From Bacteroidales bacterium (GTDB lineage: Bacteria; Bacteroidota; Bacteroidia; Bacteroidales; Muribaculaceae): a stretch of DNA of 64,000 nt. Shown here one piece after another: positions 22,803-33,981 of the stretch (positions are counted from its first letter, which is position 1; the number at the start of each line of letters is the position of its first letter). The notes under the pieces were generated by a model. It saw nothing but the letters and a program-made list of their open reading frames with translations. It was not told where the DNA came from and did no database searches. A program made the translations under genes and the position numbers. The stretch spans positions 1-64,000 of the forward strand of contig CAJTFH010000020.1 in the NCBI GenBank assembly GCA_910575545.1, given 5' to 3'.

Positions 22803-24983
22803 ATGACAACAAAGCAACAACTGACCGACGCCCTCAAACTACACTTCGGGTTTGACAAATTCAAAGGCAACCAGGAGCAAATAATGCTCTCGCTTCTGGG
22901 AGGGAACGACGTGTTCGTCCTCATGCCCACAGGCGGTGGCAAATCGCTCTGTTATCAGTTGCCATCTTTGCTGATGGAAGGCACAGCCATAGTGGTATCA
23001 CCTTTGATAGCGCTGATGAAGAACCAAGTTGACGCCATGCGCAACTTCAGCACCGACGACGGCATTGCCCATTTCCTGAACTCATCGCTCAACCGGAGCG
23101 CGATCGACCAGGTGAAGAGCGATGTCCTGTCGGGCAAGACAAAGCTGCTATACGTGGCGCCCGAATCTCTCACCAAAGAAGAGAACATTGAATTTTTAAA
23201 ATCAGTTCCCATCTCGTTCTACGCTGTCGACGAAGCCCACTGCATCTCCGAATGGGGGCACGATTTCCGCCCTGAATACAGGCGCATACGCCCGATAATC
23301 AACGAAATCGCCAACCGTCCGGTCATAGCTCTAACCGCCACCGCCACACCGAAAGTGCAACACGACATTCAGAAGAATCTCGGCATGGCAGATGCGGTGG
23401 TCTACAAATCCTCGTTCAACCGCGAGAACCTGTTCTACGAAATCCGCCCCAAAACGCCGGCTACCGACCGCGATATAATCAAATTCATAAAAAACCGCGA
23501 CGGACGCTCAGGAATAATCTACTGCCTCAGCCGCAAGAAAGTGGAGGAACTTGCAGAACTGTTGAAAATCAACAACATCAAGGCCCTCCCATATCATGCT
23601 GGAATGGACGCAGCCACCCGCTCGGCCAACCAAGACGCATTCCTGCTGGAACAGGTCGACGTGATTGTGGCAACCATAGCCTTCGGCATGGGTATCGACA
23701 AGCCCGACGTGCGCTACGTAATCCACTACGACATGCCCAAATCGCTCGAAGGCTACTACCAGGAAACCGGGCGCGCCGGCCGTGACGGAGGAGAAGGACA
23801 CTGCCTGACGTTCTACTCGGCCAAAGACCTAAAGAAAATGGAAAAATTCATGCAAGGCAAACCTGTGACTGAACAGGAAATCGGCAAACAGCTTCTCAAC
23901 GAGACAGCCTCTTATGCCGAGTCTTCGGTATGCCGACGCAAGACATTGCTCCATTATTTCGGCGAAGACTTCGCAGCCGAGAACTGTGGGAACTGCGATA
24001 ACTGTTTAAATCCTAAGAAGAAAGTGGACGCTAAAGATGATTTATGCGCGGTATTGGAAACAATCTCCGCCCTTAAAGAAAAGTTTAAAGCAGAACACAT
24101 AATCGACGTGGTGACCGGACGCGAAACCAACGATGTGCGATCATATCACCACGACACCCTCGACGTTTTCGGCTGCCTGCCGAAAGCCGACCGCCGCTAC
24201 CTCAACACACTTATCAGGCAGGCGACACTGGCGGGCTACATCGACCGGGAAATCGAAAATTTCGGGCTTGTGCATATAACCCCCAAAGGGAAATCATTCC
24301 TGAAGAAACCTTCAGCATTCAAAATCGTCGAAGACAACGACTTCAGTGAAGAAGAGGAGGAAACCCCGATCAAAAGCGGAGCTTCATGCGCTGTCGACCC
24401 TGAGCTATACTCCATCCTGAAAGACCTCCGCAAAAAAATTGCCAAACATTATAACCTGCCACCCTACGTCATATTCCAGGATCCCTCGCTCGAAGCAATG
24501 GCAACCACCTATCCGGTAACGATGGAAGAGCTCCAGAACATCACCGGGGTAGGCGCCGGCAAAGCCAAACGCTACGGCGAAGAGTTCATAAAGGTCATCA
24601 AGACCCATGTGGAAGAAAACGAAATAGAACGCCCTGAAGACCTGCGTGTGCGCTCGGTAGCCAACAAAAGCCGGATAAAAATATCAATCATACAGGCCAT
24701 AGACCGCAAAATCGACCTCGACGAACTCGCCAACTCTAAATGCATGGAATTCGGCGAACTCCTCGACGAAATAGAAGCCATAGTCTACTCAGGCACAAAA
24801 ATAAACATAACCTACTTCATCAATGAAGTAATCGACGACGACCACCAGGACGACATCTTTGAATATTTCAAAGAGGCAGACTCCGATTCTCTCGAAGAAG
24901 CAATCCAGGAACTCGGCTCGGAATACAGCGAAGACGAAATCCGCCTTATGCGCATCAAATTCCTGTCGGAACTCGGCAACTGA
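22803..24983 (+). CDS. recQ: ATP-dependent DNA helicase RecQ
   Basis: RecQ is a 3'-5' DNA helicase in recombination and replication repair. The 726 residues contain Walker A MPTGGGKSLCYQ, DEAH box AVDEAHCISEWGHDFRP, the aromatic-rich loop just after it, and motif VI YYQETGRAGRDG. The RQC zinc site is CRRKTLLHYFGEDF...CGNCDNC, followed by a winged helix and a HRDC domain (about 530-610). About 100 extra C-terminal residues rich in Asp/Glu follow, typical of the longer Bacteroidetes RecQ. Its 3' end is 60 bp before a hairpin inside a dispersed repeat. Confidence 0.95.
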   Translation: MTTKQQLTDALKLHFGFDKFKGNQEQIMLSLLGGNDVFVLMPTGGGKSLCYQLPSLLMEGTAIVVSPLIALMKNQVDAMRNFSTDDGIAHFLNSSLNRSAIDQVKSDVLSGKTKLLYVAPESLTKEENIEFLKSVPISFYAVDEAHCISEWGHDFRPEYRRIRPIINEIANRPVIALTATATPKVQHDIQKNLGMADAVVYKSSFNRENLFYEIRPKTPATDRDIIKFIKNRDGRSGIIYCLSRKKVEELAELLKINNIKALPYHAGMDAATRSANQDAFLLEQVDVIVATIAFGMGIDKPDVRYVIHYDMPKSLEGYYQETGRAGRDGGEGHCLTFYSAKDLKKMEKFMQGKPVTEQEIGKQLLNETASYAESSVCRRKTLLHYFGEDFAAENCGNCDNCLNPKKKVDAKDDLCAVLETISALKEKFKAEHIIDVVTGRETNDVRSYHHDTLDVFGCLPKADRRYLNTLIRQATLAGYIDREIENFGLVHITPKGKSFLKKPSAFKIVEDNDFSEEEEETPIKSGASCAVDPELYSILKDLRKKIAKHYNLPPYVIFQDPSLEAMATTYPVTMEELQNITGVGAGKAKRYGEEFIKVIKTHVEENEIERPEDLRVRSVANKSRIKISIIQAIDRKIDLDELANSKCMEFGELLDEIEAIVYSGTKINITYFINEVIDDDHQDDIFEYFKEADSDSLEEAIQELGSEYSEDEIRLMRIKFLSELGN

Positions 24984-25032: not shown

Positions 25033-25203
25033 TTAAACAACAGGCGCTGTGTCGAAATTCGACCAACGCCTTTTTTGCATCCGGATGGAGAGGGTGCTGT
25101 CAGAATGGTTCAGATGGTAGGAGCCTGAGGGTGAGGGGGAAGGGAGTTGACTAAGGTCAATGACCGAACCCGAAGCCCTCGGGCGACGACCCAGATGAGC
25201 CAT
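25033..25203 (-). CDS. Short ORF carried by the 184-bp repeat (copy 1)
   Basis: The 56-codon frame starts MAHLGRRPRASGSVIDLSQL and continues with a Pro/Ser stretch and an RRWSNFD segment before ending after DTAPVV. The same frame is open in copy 2 (59 residues, different C-terminus). Of the differences inside the frame, one is synonymous, one changes Q to P and one changes A to T. Two copies can agree simply because the DNA is nearly identical, so coding is unproven. Confidence 0.25.
   Translation of the reverse strand: MAHLGRRPRASGSVIDLSQLPSPSPSGSYHLNHSDSTLSIRMQKRRWSNFDTAPVV
25043..25076 (+). terminator. recQ terminator provided by the repeat
   Basis: A near-perfect 14-bp hairpin followed by TTTTTT lies 60 bp after the recQ stop codon. 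It fits an intrinsic terminator on the plus strand. Confidence 0.6.
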
Positions 25204-25226
25204 TATGACACACCCTCCTGTTATAT
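25043..25226 (-). repeat. 184-bp dispersed intergenic element, copy 1
   Basis: This is 179 of 184 identical, without gaps, to 32257-32440. On the plus strand it opens with a 28-nt hairpin (25043-25070; inverted arms GGCGCTG and CAACGCC plus GTCGAA/TTCGAC) followed by six T. An inner pair of inverted repeats closes the rest: GAGGGTGCTGTCA (25090-25102) against TGACACACCCTC (25206-25217). TTGAC-TAAG-GTCAA and GCCC-TC-GGGC form smaller stems inside. In both copies it sits directly downstream of a minus-strand gene. Confidence 0.9.
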
Positions 25227-25321: not shown

Positions 25322-26014
25322 TCAAAATAATTTCCGTGGCTTTGTTGCCTGGAAATCTTTAAGATATGTCGGAACGGAATAGGCCAGGTCAAGAAAACGC
25401 CCCTCCCTGAATGCCTTGTCTGAGAGGGCGAGCATGTCAACGGCCAACGGTTTGATATCGTCAACAAACCGCGCATTCCTATGGGCGAGCACGTCACGGG
25501 CTTTATCACTGCCATTACCGAAAAACAACACCTCTCCGCGTTCAAGCCATTTATCATAAGAATCCGGTTCGAGAATCAGAGGGGACGGATCTGCCAGAAC
25601 ATTCAGAGCGAGGTCATAGACCGCCGTATAGACCTCCATGCGGCGGGCGTCGATCATCGGTGCGAACATAACATTCTCATCAAGCTCAGGCTGCGAGAAC
25701 ATCACCGACACAGCCATGGTTTTCAAAGTGTCGACACCAATCAGAGGCACATCGAGCGCATATGCCAGACCCTTTGCCTCTGACAGGCCGATGCGTAGCC
25801 CAGTGTAACTACCCGGCCCAAGCGACACACCCACAGCGTCGAGACGCATTTCATGGCGCCTCAGATGGTCGAGACACCCCTTTATGAAGCCACTGAGCAA
25901 AGTGGCGTGGTTGCGGCCGTCAAAAGCCTCAAAATGTTCCAGAATAGCGCCCTCTGAAGTCAGGGCAACCGAGCAAACGTCGGTAGAAGTCTCTATATTT
26001 ATTATCGTCGGCAT
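25322..26014 (-). CDS. tsaB: tRNA t6A biosynthesis protein TsaB
   Basis: TsaB is the inactive ASKHA partner of TsaD in the threonylcarbamoyladenosine complex for ANN-decoding tRNAs. The 230 residues start MPTIINIETSTDVCSVAL, the phosphate-binding-like first hairpin, with FDGRNHATLLSGFIKGCL and the conserved SLGPGSYTGLRIGLSEAKGLAYAL. An upstream ATG at 26050 lies inside the -7 box, so 26014 is the start. It is divergent from yicC with overlapping promoter boxes, and the 184-bp repeat follows its stop. Confidence 0.92.
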   Translation of the reverse strand: MPTIINIETSTDVCSVALTSEGAILEHFEAFDGRNHATLLSGFIKGCLDHLRRHEMRLDAVGVSLGPGSYTGLRIGLSEAKGLAYALDVPLIGVDTLKTMAVSVMFSQPELDENVMFAPMIDARRMEVYTAVYDLALNVLADPSPLILEPDSYDKWLERGEVLFFGNGSDKARDVLAHRNARFVDDIKPLAVDMLALSDKAFREGRFLDLAYSVPTYLKDFQATKPRKLF

Positions 26015-26047
26015 CTTTTTGCTGGGAATATCATAAAAAAGTCTATG

Positions 26048-26055
26048 CAAATTTA
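26048..26055 (-). promoter_or_regulatory. tsaB -7 box
   Basis: TAAATTTG on the minus strand, 34 bp before the TsaB ATG. No good -33 TTG is visible. Confidence 0.45.
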
Positions 26056-30895: not shown

Positions 30896-32095
30896 TCAAC
30901 CTTTTAAATTATCAGGTTTGACCAGCTTGCCCACTATGATTGCGATTGCGCCGTCGCCGGTAACGTTACAGGCTGTGCCGAAGCTGTCCATAGCTATGTA
31001 AAGGGCTATTATCAGAGCACAATCGGCTTCGGTGAAACCGAGCATGGAAGTGAACAACCCCAAGGCTGCCATAACCGCACCACCAGGCACTCCCGGAGCG
31101 GCAATGATAGTTATCCCCAACATGGCGATAAACCCGGCAAACATGCCGAAATCATAGGGCATACCATGGGCAATCATAAGCGCCAACGCACATGCCACCA
31201 ACTTCAGAGTGCTGCCCGACATATGGATTGTTGCGCACAACGGCACTGTGAATCCTGCCACATCCTTGTTGACCCCCATAGCCACCGCACGTTCAAGCGT
31301 AACCGGAATCGTTGCAGCCGACGACTGGGTGCCCAGCGCGGTGAAATAAGCCGGCATCATAGTCCAAAGCAGTTTCAACGGATTCCGGCTACCTGACGAG
31401 AAAGGCGCTGCAACACAATACTGAAACACCAACACAAACACGTGGAGCGCGAAAATCACAGCTATTATCTTTATGAATGTGCCGACGATCGACCCTACTT
31501 CCCCCGTGACTGTCATATTCAGGAAAATGCCGAATATATAAATCGGCAGCAAAGGAATTATCACCTTCTCTATTACCATCGTCACTATCATCCGGAATTC
31601 GTCGAGGCCGCTTTTAAGAACCCCTTTCGGGAGGAAAGCACATCCCAAGCCGACCACAAACGCAGTCACCAAAGCCGTCATCACCCCCATAAGCGGAGGC
31701 ATCGGAATAGCGAAATATGGCTGTGGATGCAAAGCTGTTGACGTGGCTGCAACATATCCGGCAGGTTCAATCATCTCCGGGAAGAACAGAACTCCGGTAA
31801 AATACGAAAGGAATCCGGCAAACAATGTGAAACCATATGCCAACAGAGCGGTTATCACCAGCATCTTCCCCGCTTTCGCCCCTATATCGGCTATAGCCGG
31901 GGCAACGAAGCCCAAAATGATAAGCGGGATACAGAAGCCGAGAAACTGGCTGAAAACCGCATTGAACGTGGCCATAAGCCTCGCCCCCCACATCGGGCAC
32001 ACATATCCCGCACCGATTCCAAGCGCTATCGCTATCAGAATCTTCGGCAACAGCCCCATCCTGCCCCACCAGCTCCTTTTCTCTTCATTTTCCAT
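30896..32095 (-). CDS. Dicarboxylate/amino acid:cation symporter (DAACS family)
   Basis: This is an inner-membrane sodium/proton-coupled carrier of dicarboxylates or acidic amino acids. The 399 residues (MENEEKRSWWGRMGLLPKIL...) show eight helices plus re-entrant loops with the family motifs FTALGTQSSAATIPVTLE (serine-rich HP1), ATIHMSGSTLKLVACAL and GVPGGAVMAALGLF (HP2), and the C-terminal MDSFGTACNVTGDGA. Bacteroidetes relatives are often called serine/threonine or glutamate transporters; the substrate is not resolvable. An ATG at 32143 lies upstream of the promoter, so 32095 is the start. Confidence 0.93.
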   Translation of the reverse strand: MENEEKRSWWGRMGLLPKILIAIALGIGAGYVCPMWGARLMATFNAVFSQFLGFCIPLIILGFVAPAIADIGAKAGKMLVITALLAYGFTLFAGFLSYFTGVLFFPEMIEPAGYVAATSTALHPQPYFAIPMPPLMGVMTALVTAFVVGLGCAFLPKGVLKSGLDEFRMIVTMVIEKVIIPLLPIYIFGIFLNMTVTGEVGSIVGTFIKIIAVIFALHVFVLVFQYCVAAPFSSGSRNPLKLLWTMMPAYFTALGTQSSAATIPVTLERAVAMGVNKDVAGFTVPLCATIHMSGSTLKLVACALALMIAHGMPYDFGMFAGFIAMLGITIIAAPGVPGGAVMAALGLFTSMLGFTEADCALIIALYIAMDSFGTACNVTGDGAIAIIVGKLVKPDNLKG

Positions 32096-32110
32096 GGCAT
32101 CGTATTTTCC

Positions 32111-32196
32111 ACAAAGATACGGATTAGCCGGGAGCGAAGCCAAATAAATTTTGGCTTTGCCAAGCGTGAGTATCTAAGGCAGAGCCAAAGATAGCT
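32111..32196 (-). repeat. 86-bp promoter-bearing dispersed repeat, copy B
   Basis: This aligns ungapped to 307-392. On the minus strand it carries two TATCTTTG boxes (plus-strand 32112-32119 and 32186-32193) and ends immediately before the symporter gene. The proximal box has a TTTG 21 bp upstream (32141-32144), giving a complete promoter inside the repeat. Confidence 0.7.
32112..32144 (-). promoter_or_regulatory. Symporter promoter within repeat B
   Basis: The -7 box TATCTTTG and the -33 TTTG are separated by 21 bp on the minus strand. The likely transcription start near 32105 precedes the ATG at 32095, giving a very short leader. Confidence 0.6.
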
Positions 32197-32237: not shown

Positions 32238-32417
32238 TTAATAATCATGAAAAAACGGCGTTGTGTCGAAATTCGACCAACGCCTTTTTGGCATCCGGAT
32301 GGAGAGGGTGCTGTCAGAATGGTTCAGATGGTAGGAGCCTGAGGGTGAGGGTGAAGGGAGTTGACTAAGGTCAATGACCGAACCCGAAGCCCTCGGGCGA
32401 CGACCCAGATGAGCCAT
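32238..32417 (-). CDS. Short ORF carried by the 184-bp repeat (copy 2)
   Basis: The 59-residue frame starts MAHLGRRPRASGSV like copy 1 but ends DTTPFFHDY because the flanking sequence differs. No Shine-Dalgarno or separate promoter is seen. It may be the reading of a structured RNA rather than a protein gene. Confidence 0.25.
   Translation of the reverse strand: MAHLGRRPRASGSVIDLSQLPSPSPSGSYHLNHSDSTLSIRMPKRRWSNFDTTPFFHDY
32250..32284 (-). terminator. gpmI terminator provided by the repeat
   Basis: A 14-bp hairpin (32257-32284) is followed on the minus strand by six T (32250-32255). It lies about 180 bp after the gpmI stop codon. Confidence 0.6.
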
Positions 32418-32440
32418 TATGACACACCCTCTTGTAATAT
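32257..32440 (-). repeat. 184-bp dispersed intergenic element, copy 2
   Basis: The near-identical partner of 25043-25226 has five substitutions and no indels. It begins 24 bp after the gpmI stop codon (minus strand) and ends with the hairpin at 32257-32284. On the minus strand the hairpin is followed by GTTTTTT, a good intrinsic terminator for gpmI. On the plus strand it is followed by five T. Confidence 0.9.
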
Positions 32441-32463: not shown

Positions 32464-33981
32464 TCAGGGCTTCACAAGATTGCGGCCGGTCATCTCTGCC
32501 GGCTGGGTGATGCCCATTATGTGGAGGATGGTCGGAGCCACGTCGGCAAGGATACCGTTCTCCACGGTTGCGCTCTTATCGGCTGTCACATAGACACACG
32601 GAACCGGGTTGAGGGAATGGGCCGTGTTGGGAGTGCCGTCGGCATTGATGGCGTGGTCGGCATTACCATGGTCGGCAATGATTATAACCTCGTAGTCGGC
32701 GGCTTTTGCAGCCTCTACAGTGTCGCGCACACATTCATCCACAGCTTTCACAGCCTTCTCTATCGCTTCATACACACCGGTGTGACCAACCATGTCGCCA
32801 TTGGCGAAATTGACAACAATGAAGTCGTATTTCTCGCTTTTTATCGCCTCGACCAGTTTGTCTTTCACCTCATATGCACTCATTTCGGGCTTGAGGTCAT
32901 AGGTTGCCACTTTCGGAGATGGCACAAGTATGCGGTCTTCACCCTCGAAAGCCGCCTCGCGTCCGCCATTGAAGAAGAACGTCACATGTGCATATTTTTC
33001 AGTCTCTGCGATATGGAGCTGGCTCTTATGTTCTTTCGACAGATATTCGCCGATAGTGTTCTGAACGTTTTCTTTCGGGAAAAGGATATGCACCCCTGTG
33101 AACGACGCATCATAGGGTGTCATGCAGTAGTATTGCAGACCGGGAAGGGTTGTCATGCCCTCCTGCGGCATGTCGTGCTGTGTCAGCACAACGGTCAGTT
33201 CCTTGGCGCGGTCGTTGCGGTAGTTGAAGAAAACAACGGCATCGCCCGGCTTGATGGTGCCATCTACCGTCGAGTTGTTGATCGGTTTGATGAACTCGTC
33301 GGTAACATCCTCGTCGTAGCTTTCCTGCATGGCCTTAACCATGTCGGTAGCCTGTTTGCCTTCACCTTTCACCAGCAGGTCATAGGCCACTTTCACGCGG
33401 TCCCAGCGTTTGTCGCGGTCCATCGCATAGTAACGTCCGATGATTGAAGCAATCACACCGGCGCTGTTTTTGCAATGGTCTGTCAGACGCTCGATGAAAC
33501 CCTTTCCGCTGCGGGGGTCGGTGTCGCGGCCATCCATGAAGCAGTGCAGGTAAACATTTTCAAGACCGTATTCCTTGGCAATGTCACACAGAGCCTCGAT
33601 ATGCTCAAACGACGAGTGCACACCACCGGTCGAGGTCAGCCCCATCAGATGGAGCGACTTACCGTTTTCCTTGCAATATGAATAAGCGCTCTTGATTTCG
33701 GGATTGTCGAGAATCGATCGGTCGGCTATCGCTTTGTTGATTTTAACCAGATCCTGGTAAACCACGCGGCCGGCACCGATATTGAGGTGGCCGACCTCAG
33801 AGTTGCCCATCTGGCCGTCGGGCAGACCTACGTTTTCGCCTGAAGCCTGCAGCTCCGAATGGGGGTAGCTTTCTATGAGATATTTCCAATATTCGGGACG
33901 GGCCGAATAGATGGCGTCACTTTTCGAGTGGTTGCCGATTCCCCATCCGTCGAGAATCATCAGTAATGCTTTATGTGCCAT
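32464..33981 (-). CDS. gpmI: 2,3-bisphosphoglycerate-independent phosphoglycerate mutase
   Basis: The enzyme interconverts 3- and 2-phosphoglycerate in glycolysis using two Mn2+ and a phosphoserine intermediate. The 505 residues start [24 protein letters not shown] (metal Asp). The catalytic serine is in [16 protein letters not shown], a metal/substrate segment in [12 protein letters not shown], the [13 protein letters not shown] block and [12 protein letters not shown] follow, and [10 protein letters not shown] is near the C-terminus. All belong to the alkaline-phosphatase superfamily core. Length is standard. A stable hairpin separates it from fumarase upstream. Confidence 0.96.

Follow-up and report, generated by a model that had tools for sequence, protein, structure and literature searches.

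What is the sequence that recurs almost unchanged, in unrelated surroundings, at two places in the 64,000-nt stretch of DNA analyzed here (the window)? An earlier note had described a dispersed 184-bp element, and our comparison bore out both the unrelated neighbors that it reported and the near-identity of the copies, which have five mismatches in 184 positions and are free of indels. The repeat itself is real, but its conserved part is 175 nt long, at 25043-25217 (copy 1) and at 32257-32431 (copy 2), in both cases on the + strand, taken here as the functional one; the last 9 nt of the 184-bp interval are target flank that is alike by chance. Both loci stand as well, but two is too low a count for the genome of this gut bacterium (3.27 Mb, 73 contigs), in which a 30-base core pattern recovered 53 element copies and a reversed-pattern control none. 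At least 40 of these own copies, as we call those of the genome that contains the window, are full-length with 97-99% identity. Among the 52 examined, 49 span exactly 175 nt with sharp ends, the set comprising 16 near-identical sequences in which common polymorphisms occur only at positions 5 and 34 and all others are singletons. One length in 49 of 52 copies, together with 16 near-identical sequences, indicates a recent burst. With about 53 copies, sharp ends, a patchy distribution and recent bursts, the suggestion of a MITE-like dispersed repeat was well founded, and the element is a real, recently active mobile repeat. It probably forms a branch of the ERIC superfamily that has gained a terminator-like hairpin and whose ends are not those of ERIC.

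Contig ends in four genomes (G004, G001, G265, and G140) carry many copies at their first or last bases. The repeat breaks short-read assemblies, so that copy counts are underestimates. One own copy (L097; G000:C2, around 4856) lacks the apical part and keeps both ends and the basal stem.

On the + strand the unit consists of two parts, a bulged hairpin of about 12 bp followed by T6, and a 128-nt main hairpin that resembles ERIC. The main hairpin occupies 25090-25217 in copy 1 (+; 135 bits, E 3.8e-30 with covariance model R2, built from Bacteroidales copies only, and supported by covariation) and 32304-32431 in copy 2 (+; R2 138.8 bits, E 5.1e-31), and the long-range GAGGGTG...CACCCTC pairing that had been proposed for the element proved to close this single long hairpin. 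Folding of 25080-25226 gave a dG of -85.2 (z -10.9) for the + strand and of -58.4 (z -5.1) for the minus strand; this asymmetry, together with purine-rich internal loops, points to the + strand as the selected one. Double changes occur in 24 of the 35 predicted pairs among 21 aligned copies. In 45 diverse copies, 95.4% of the cells are paired as opposed to 32-42% with slid partners, the covariation is 0.592 as opposed to 0.196 in shuffles, and 44 of the 45 retain one G-U wobble; compensatory double changes in 30 of 33 pairs strongly support the structured nucleic acid that had been suspected. In the alignment of copies, near-invariant loop strands lie around CAGATG...AGG, GGGAG...TGACCGA, and GCGACG..CAGAT, several of which probably form tandem G-A mismatches. 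In copy 1, the conserved internal-loop strands are CAGATGGTAGGAGC (25111-25124, +) and GCGACGACCCAGATG (25183-25197, +), both near-invariant in alignments A1 and A3, and between them lies the apical core GGGAG-TTGAC-TAAG-GTCAA-TGACCGA (25142-25167, +), which is common to ERIC (alignments A3 and A4 and a pan-phylum motif scan). No Rfam 15 covariance model matched the element at E<=1.

The smaller part, a predicted terminator-like hairpin (GGCGCTGTGTCGAAATTCGACCAACGCC, bulged), lies upstream at 25043-25070 (+) in copy 1, followed by its T6 tract at 25071-25076 (+), and at 32257-32284 (+) in copy 2; in about half of the own copies T6 is replaced by T5G. The 14-bp terminator hairpin of the earlier description is thus present with its T tract, but its stem is bulged and about 12 bp long, and because of the bulge a strict terminator scan that allowed none did not call it. 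In the own genome this hairpin is part of the amplified unit. A strong hairpin also lies directly upstream in other genomes of the family (47 of 70 copies, versus 0 of 700 shuffles), variable in sequence from copy to copy with the pairing kept. From these features we infer that the upstream hairpin may act as a terminator.

The genomic setting is that of gene ends. Copy 1 lies 59 nt past the stop codon of a recQ-like helicase gene (22803-24983, +; Pfam DEAD, Helicase_C, RQC, and HRDC), with which a tsaB-like gene of the TsaD/TsaB superfamily (25322-26050, -; Pfam PF00814) is convergent. Copy 2 is situated 32 nt past the stop codon of gpmI, encoding 2,3-BPG-independent phosphoglycerate mutase (32464-33981, -; Pfam iPGM_N and Metalloenzyme), and 5' of a sodium:dicarboxylate symporter gene (30896-32143, -; Pfam PF00375). 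The position of both copies after a minus-strand gene therefore holds for the tsaB-like gene and gpmI, with the addition that copy 1 is also 3' of recQ on the + strand. Among the 50 own contexts scored, 22 are convergent, 26 codirectional, and two divergent, so that 48 of 50 are not divergent, and copies typically lie 20-40 nt past a stop codon. Codirectional copies have no clear orientation preference (16 sense versus 10 antisense). A 3'-UTR or terminator module, one of the possibilities raised previously, is supported by the context (gene ends and the upstream hairpin) and not as a function. Reading of the flanks placed three own copies (L002, L030, and L072; G000) directly 3' of tRNA genes.

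To describe the distribution of the repeat, we searched at increasing taxonomic depth. Among 13 other genomes of the genus, blastn found matches in eight and no match in five, along with weak matches in two other genera of the family; the nearest relatives are about 82% identical in recQ. Covariance model R1 detected the element in 38 of 297 family genomes (10 of 30 genera), several with many near-identical copies; at the level of the order, model R2 was positive for 67 of 393 genomes (47 of 206 genera). With at most 150 candidates scored per genome, so that the larger numbers are lower bounds, R2 counted at least 68 copies in Porphyromonas somerae, at least 51 in P. uenonis, and 14 in P. loveana and, in other phyla, at least 144 in a Deltaproteobacteria bin, at least 34 in a Lentisphaeria bin, 20 in a Sandaracinaceae bin, and 19 in Providencia. 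Similarly, the matches listed for a degenerate core motif, for which we estimate about 0.5 chance matches in the whole collection, include Porphyromonas, Hallella, and Muribaculaceae as well as Lentisphaeria, Deltaproteobacteria, Sandaracinaceae, Clostridiales, Coriobacteriales, Dormibacterota, and Providencia; some of these matches come from metagenome bins, in which mislabeling or stray contigs are possible. Plasmids and phages gave no blastn match to the Bacteroidales-type element, and viral contigs no motif match.

Knowledge of ERIC repeats dates back to about 1990, and strain typing makes use of them. With the Providencia copy as query, we reached loci in E. coli, Salmonella, Klebsiella, and Proteus. 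At the first of these, locus L403 in E. coli, the ERIC2 primer site is exact and the ERIC1R site carries one mismatch. Model R2 missed none of the 13 ERIC loci tried (E 4.7e-9 to 0.004, 16.6 kb searched). Most of these matches are some 100 nt long or longer, and two are confined to the core (25 nt, E 0.004), where the likeness is partly selected because the loci were reached via a core-motif scan. Conversely, model R3, built from ERIC copies only, places matches on many Bacteroidales elements, at the coordinates of the elements themselves, with the best matches at E 4e-7 (L220), 3e-6 (L312), 7e-6 (L366), and 1e-5 (L230), and has no match in 196 kb of element-free DNA from the order. When 18 kb of the window were searched without filtering, R3 ranked the two copies first and second with weak scores (15.8 and 14.9 bits, E 0.05-0.09), so that the link to ERIC runs mainly through intermediate members of the family.

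In addition to these reciprocal covariance-model matches, the Bacteroidales elements share with ERIC (also IRU or RU-1; 127 bp) the form of a single long imperfect hairpin, intergenic and multi-copy, the apical core (A/G)GGAG-stem-TGAC(C/T)G, and related internal-loop strands (AAGGCGGC ... GCCAACGC versus AAGGCGC ... GCAACGCCGC). ERIC, however, ends in TA and has a TA duplication (PMC2229807). The element has neither TATA..TATA ends nor this duplication; it ends in GGCG...CACCCTC with flanks ..AA / TT.., has diverged arms, belongs to a different phylum, and usually includes the extra upstream terminator-like hairpin in its unit. On the basis of sequence and fold, the repeat appears to be a Bacteroidales branch of the ERIC superfamily, a relation that the earlier note did not include and that R2 and R3 support; because the TA ends and the TA duplication are missing, we file it as a superfamily relative and not as ERIC itself. 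Convergent evolution of a protein-binding hairpin is a less likely source of the likeness. Published work places ERIC in Enterobacteriaceae and Vibrionaceae (PMC10969869), and among the 40 genomes of a stem-loop survey only those of E. coli, Yersinia, and Vibrio are listed with it (PMC2267715). In the literature covered, mostly freely readable papers, we found no report of ERIC in Bacteroidota and no transposase given for ERIC, and a search by the element sequence string returned unrelated papers only.

In the own genome, the left and right flanks of a single copy are often perfect inverted complements of each other from the exact junction outward. Such complements reach at least 4 bp in 15 of 52 own copies (2.3 expected from the flanks of other copies), at least 6 bp in seven (0.24 expected), and at least 10 bp in three (near 0 expected), as in CCGCCACAAAAA / TTTTTGTGGCGG; a permutation test gave 0 of 20,000, with no excess further out. 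In L051, L044, L019, L059, and L027 the complements abut the element, mostly exactly at its ends. Other genomes give a weak signal (pooled p 0.02; L203, at 9 bp, is the single clear example), which is partly due to a left boundary that is hard to place in them. Candidate explanations are insertion at the centers of palindromes, fold-back copying at insertion, and later template switching at the hairpin base. The first, a candidate by comparison with known elements, has parallels in some REP dimers, which lie inside palindromes (PMC3733652), and in YPAL, whose targets span or adjoin dyad symmetry (PMC2229807). YPAL (RU-2; about 168 bp, in Yersinia and Erwinia), compared here by description only, is like the element in size, internal inverted repeats, and the lack of TA ends, but differs in its duplications of 3-26 bp, against one of 19 bp in one of 52 copies here. 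That copy (L006; G000:C30:7459-7641) has the direct duplication ATATCATAAAAAGGGTGTG on both sides, directly before a native hairpin GGGTGTCTGAA..TTCAGACACCC. Among the 52 own copies no consistent target-site duplication was found apart from this one case, and direct flank similarity is slightly above background (p 0.01, partly due to L006; 52 copies).

The likely reading, in our view, is a non-autonomous mobile element of the ERIC superfamily that is moved in trans and that also serves as a 3'-UTR or terminator cassette. A putative enzyme supplied in trans would use the conserved loops to recognize the folded strand, be it RNA or single-stranded DNA. Because the unit carries its own terminator-like hairpin, insertion near gene ends would be tolerated or preferred, and an inserted element would become the 3' end of the neighboring transcript, where it could influence termination and mRNA stability in the way that ERIC RNA in Yersinia is reported to alter the stability of upstream mRNA through RNase E (PMC2229807). 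No mobilizing gene came to light; the fetched loci contain no recurrent neighbor gene and no arm-gene-arm copy.

A rather unlikely alternative is a classical MITE derived from an insertion sequence with terminal inverted repeats and cross-mobilized by a DDE transposase. Size, copy number, intergenic location, and a terminal inverted symmetry, imperfect and with TGTGTC close to each end, fit this origin, which calls for insertion-sequence ends matching GGCG...TGTGTC / GACACACCCTC. The same absence of a recurrent neighbor gene or arm-gene-arm copy among the fetched loci speaks against it, however, as do the target-site duplication in only one of 52 copies, the conservation of structure over the whole length and not just at the ends, and the terminal stem, which varies in sequence between genomes while its pairing is kept. 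Intergenic non-coding repeats of the same order, BrickBuilt, MITE239, MITE464/PgRS, and MITE700, are described in Porphyromonas gingivalis, where the terminal inverted repeats of MITEs match IS5-family ends (GAGACC..., ACGTCAG...; PMC4596501); their ends differ from those of the element.

Quite improbable in our judgment is a functional host RNA under selection, acting in cis as a 3'-UTR element or in trans as an sRNA and not selfish, even though the strong structural constraint, the conserved unpaired motifs, and the location at gene ends would suit it. Near-identical paralogs stand at unrelated genes, the balance of 16 to 10 among codirectional copies gives no clear preference of orientation, and the distribution is patchy, five of the 13 genus genomes being without a blastn match and 38 of the 297 family genomes positive.

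That the repeat is of REP/REPIN type, tagged by its internal GTAG and moved by a RAYT (Y1 tyrosine transposase, PF01797), is very improbable and largely refuted. The element shares with REPs and REPINs the nature of an intergenic palindromic repeat at gene ends with GTAG in a loop, in many copies the conserved one, and atypical REPs in Bacteroidetes have been reported (PMC6006769). However, PF01797 had no match in the own genome or in seven further carriers (G006, G250, G292, G027, G265, G140, and G272), none of the 55 Y1 loci fetched has the element or its hairpin nearby, the tag is internal instead of terminal and is not conserved (GATGCAAGG in many copies), and the unit is much longer, at 175 nt, than the 20-40 nt hairpin of a REP with its terminal GTAG or CGTC tag. 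A spreading small protein gene is scarcely credible: the frame beginning MAHLGRRPRA is open through nearly all own copies, but these are near-identical, so that its openness counts as one event, it usually runs into unrelated flank that would supply the C-terminus, and the conservation attributed to it is absent, a stop falling within 37 codons in eight of the 14 relatives that keep the ATG.

With the trans-mobilized hairpin as the preferred reading, we tentatively propose, as a possibility short of an even chance, that an ancient superfamily of hairpins spans several phyla, with ERIC as one of its branches, that its members would travel as folded single strands, either RNA or single-stranded DNA, by means of a dedicated loop-reading factor, and that insertion or replication across the element would leave perfect inverted flank complements and not direct duplications. 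Relatives in Bacteroidales and other phyla make a widespread element class of what has been described as an enterobacterial and vibrio feature (PMC10969869). They also open a comparative route to the mobilizer, as a gene common to burst genomes and missing in sister genomes, and the covariance models from this family can be used in annotating gut genomes, where the repeats are often at contig ends.

L086 (G010), L229 (G003), L305 (a Coriobacteriales bin), and L187 (G280) contain partial copies that are nested or in tandem, among them arms that recur beyond a full copy. The hairpin arms of L099, L100, L101, L102, L105, L106, and L108 (genomes G001, G006, and G011) harbor, at several positions, a second and smaller element of about 33 nt (TCATCGACC..GGTCGC TTGGCTCAGCCAAG or similar), REP-like in appearance and apparently mobile on its own.
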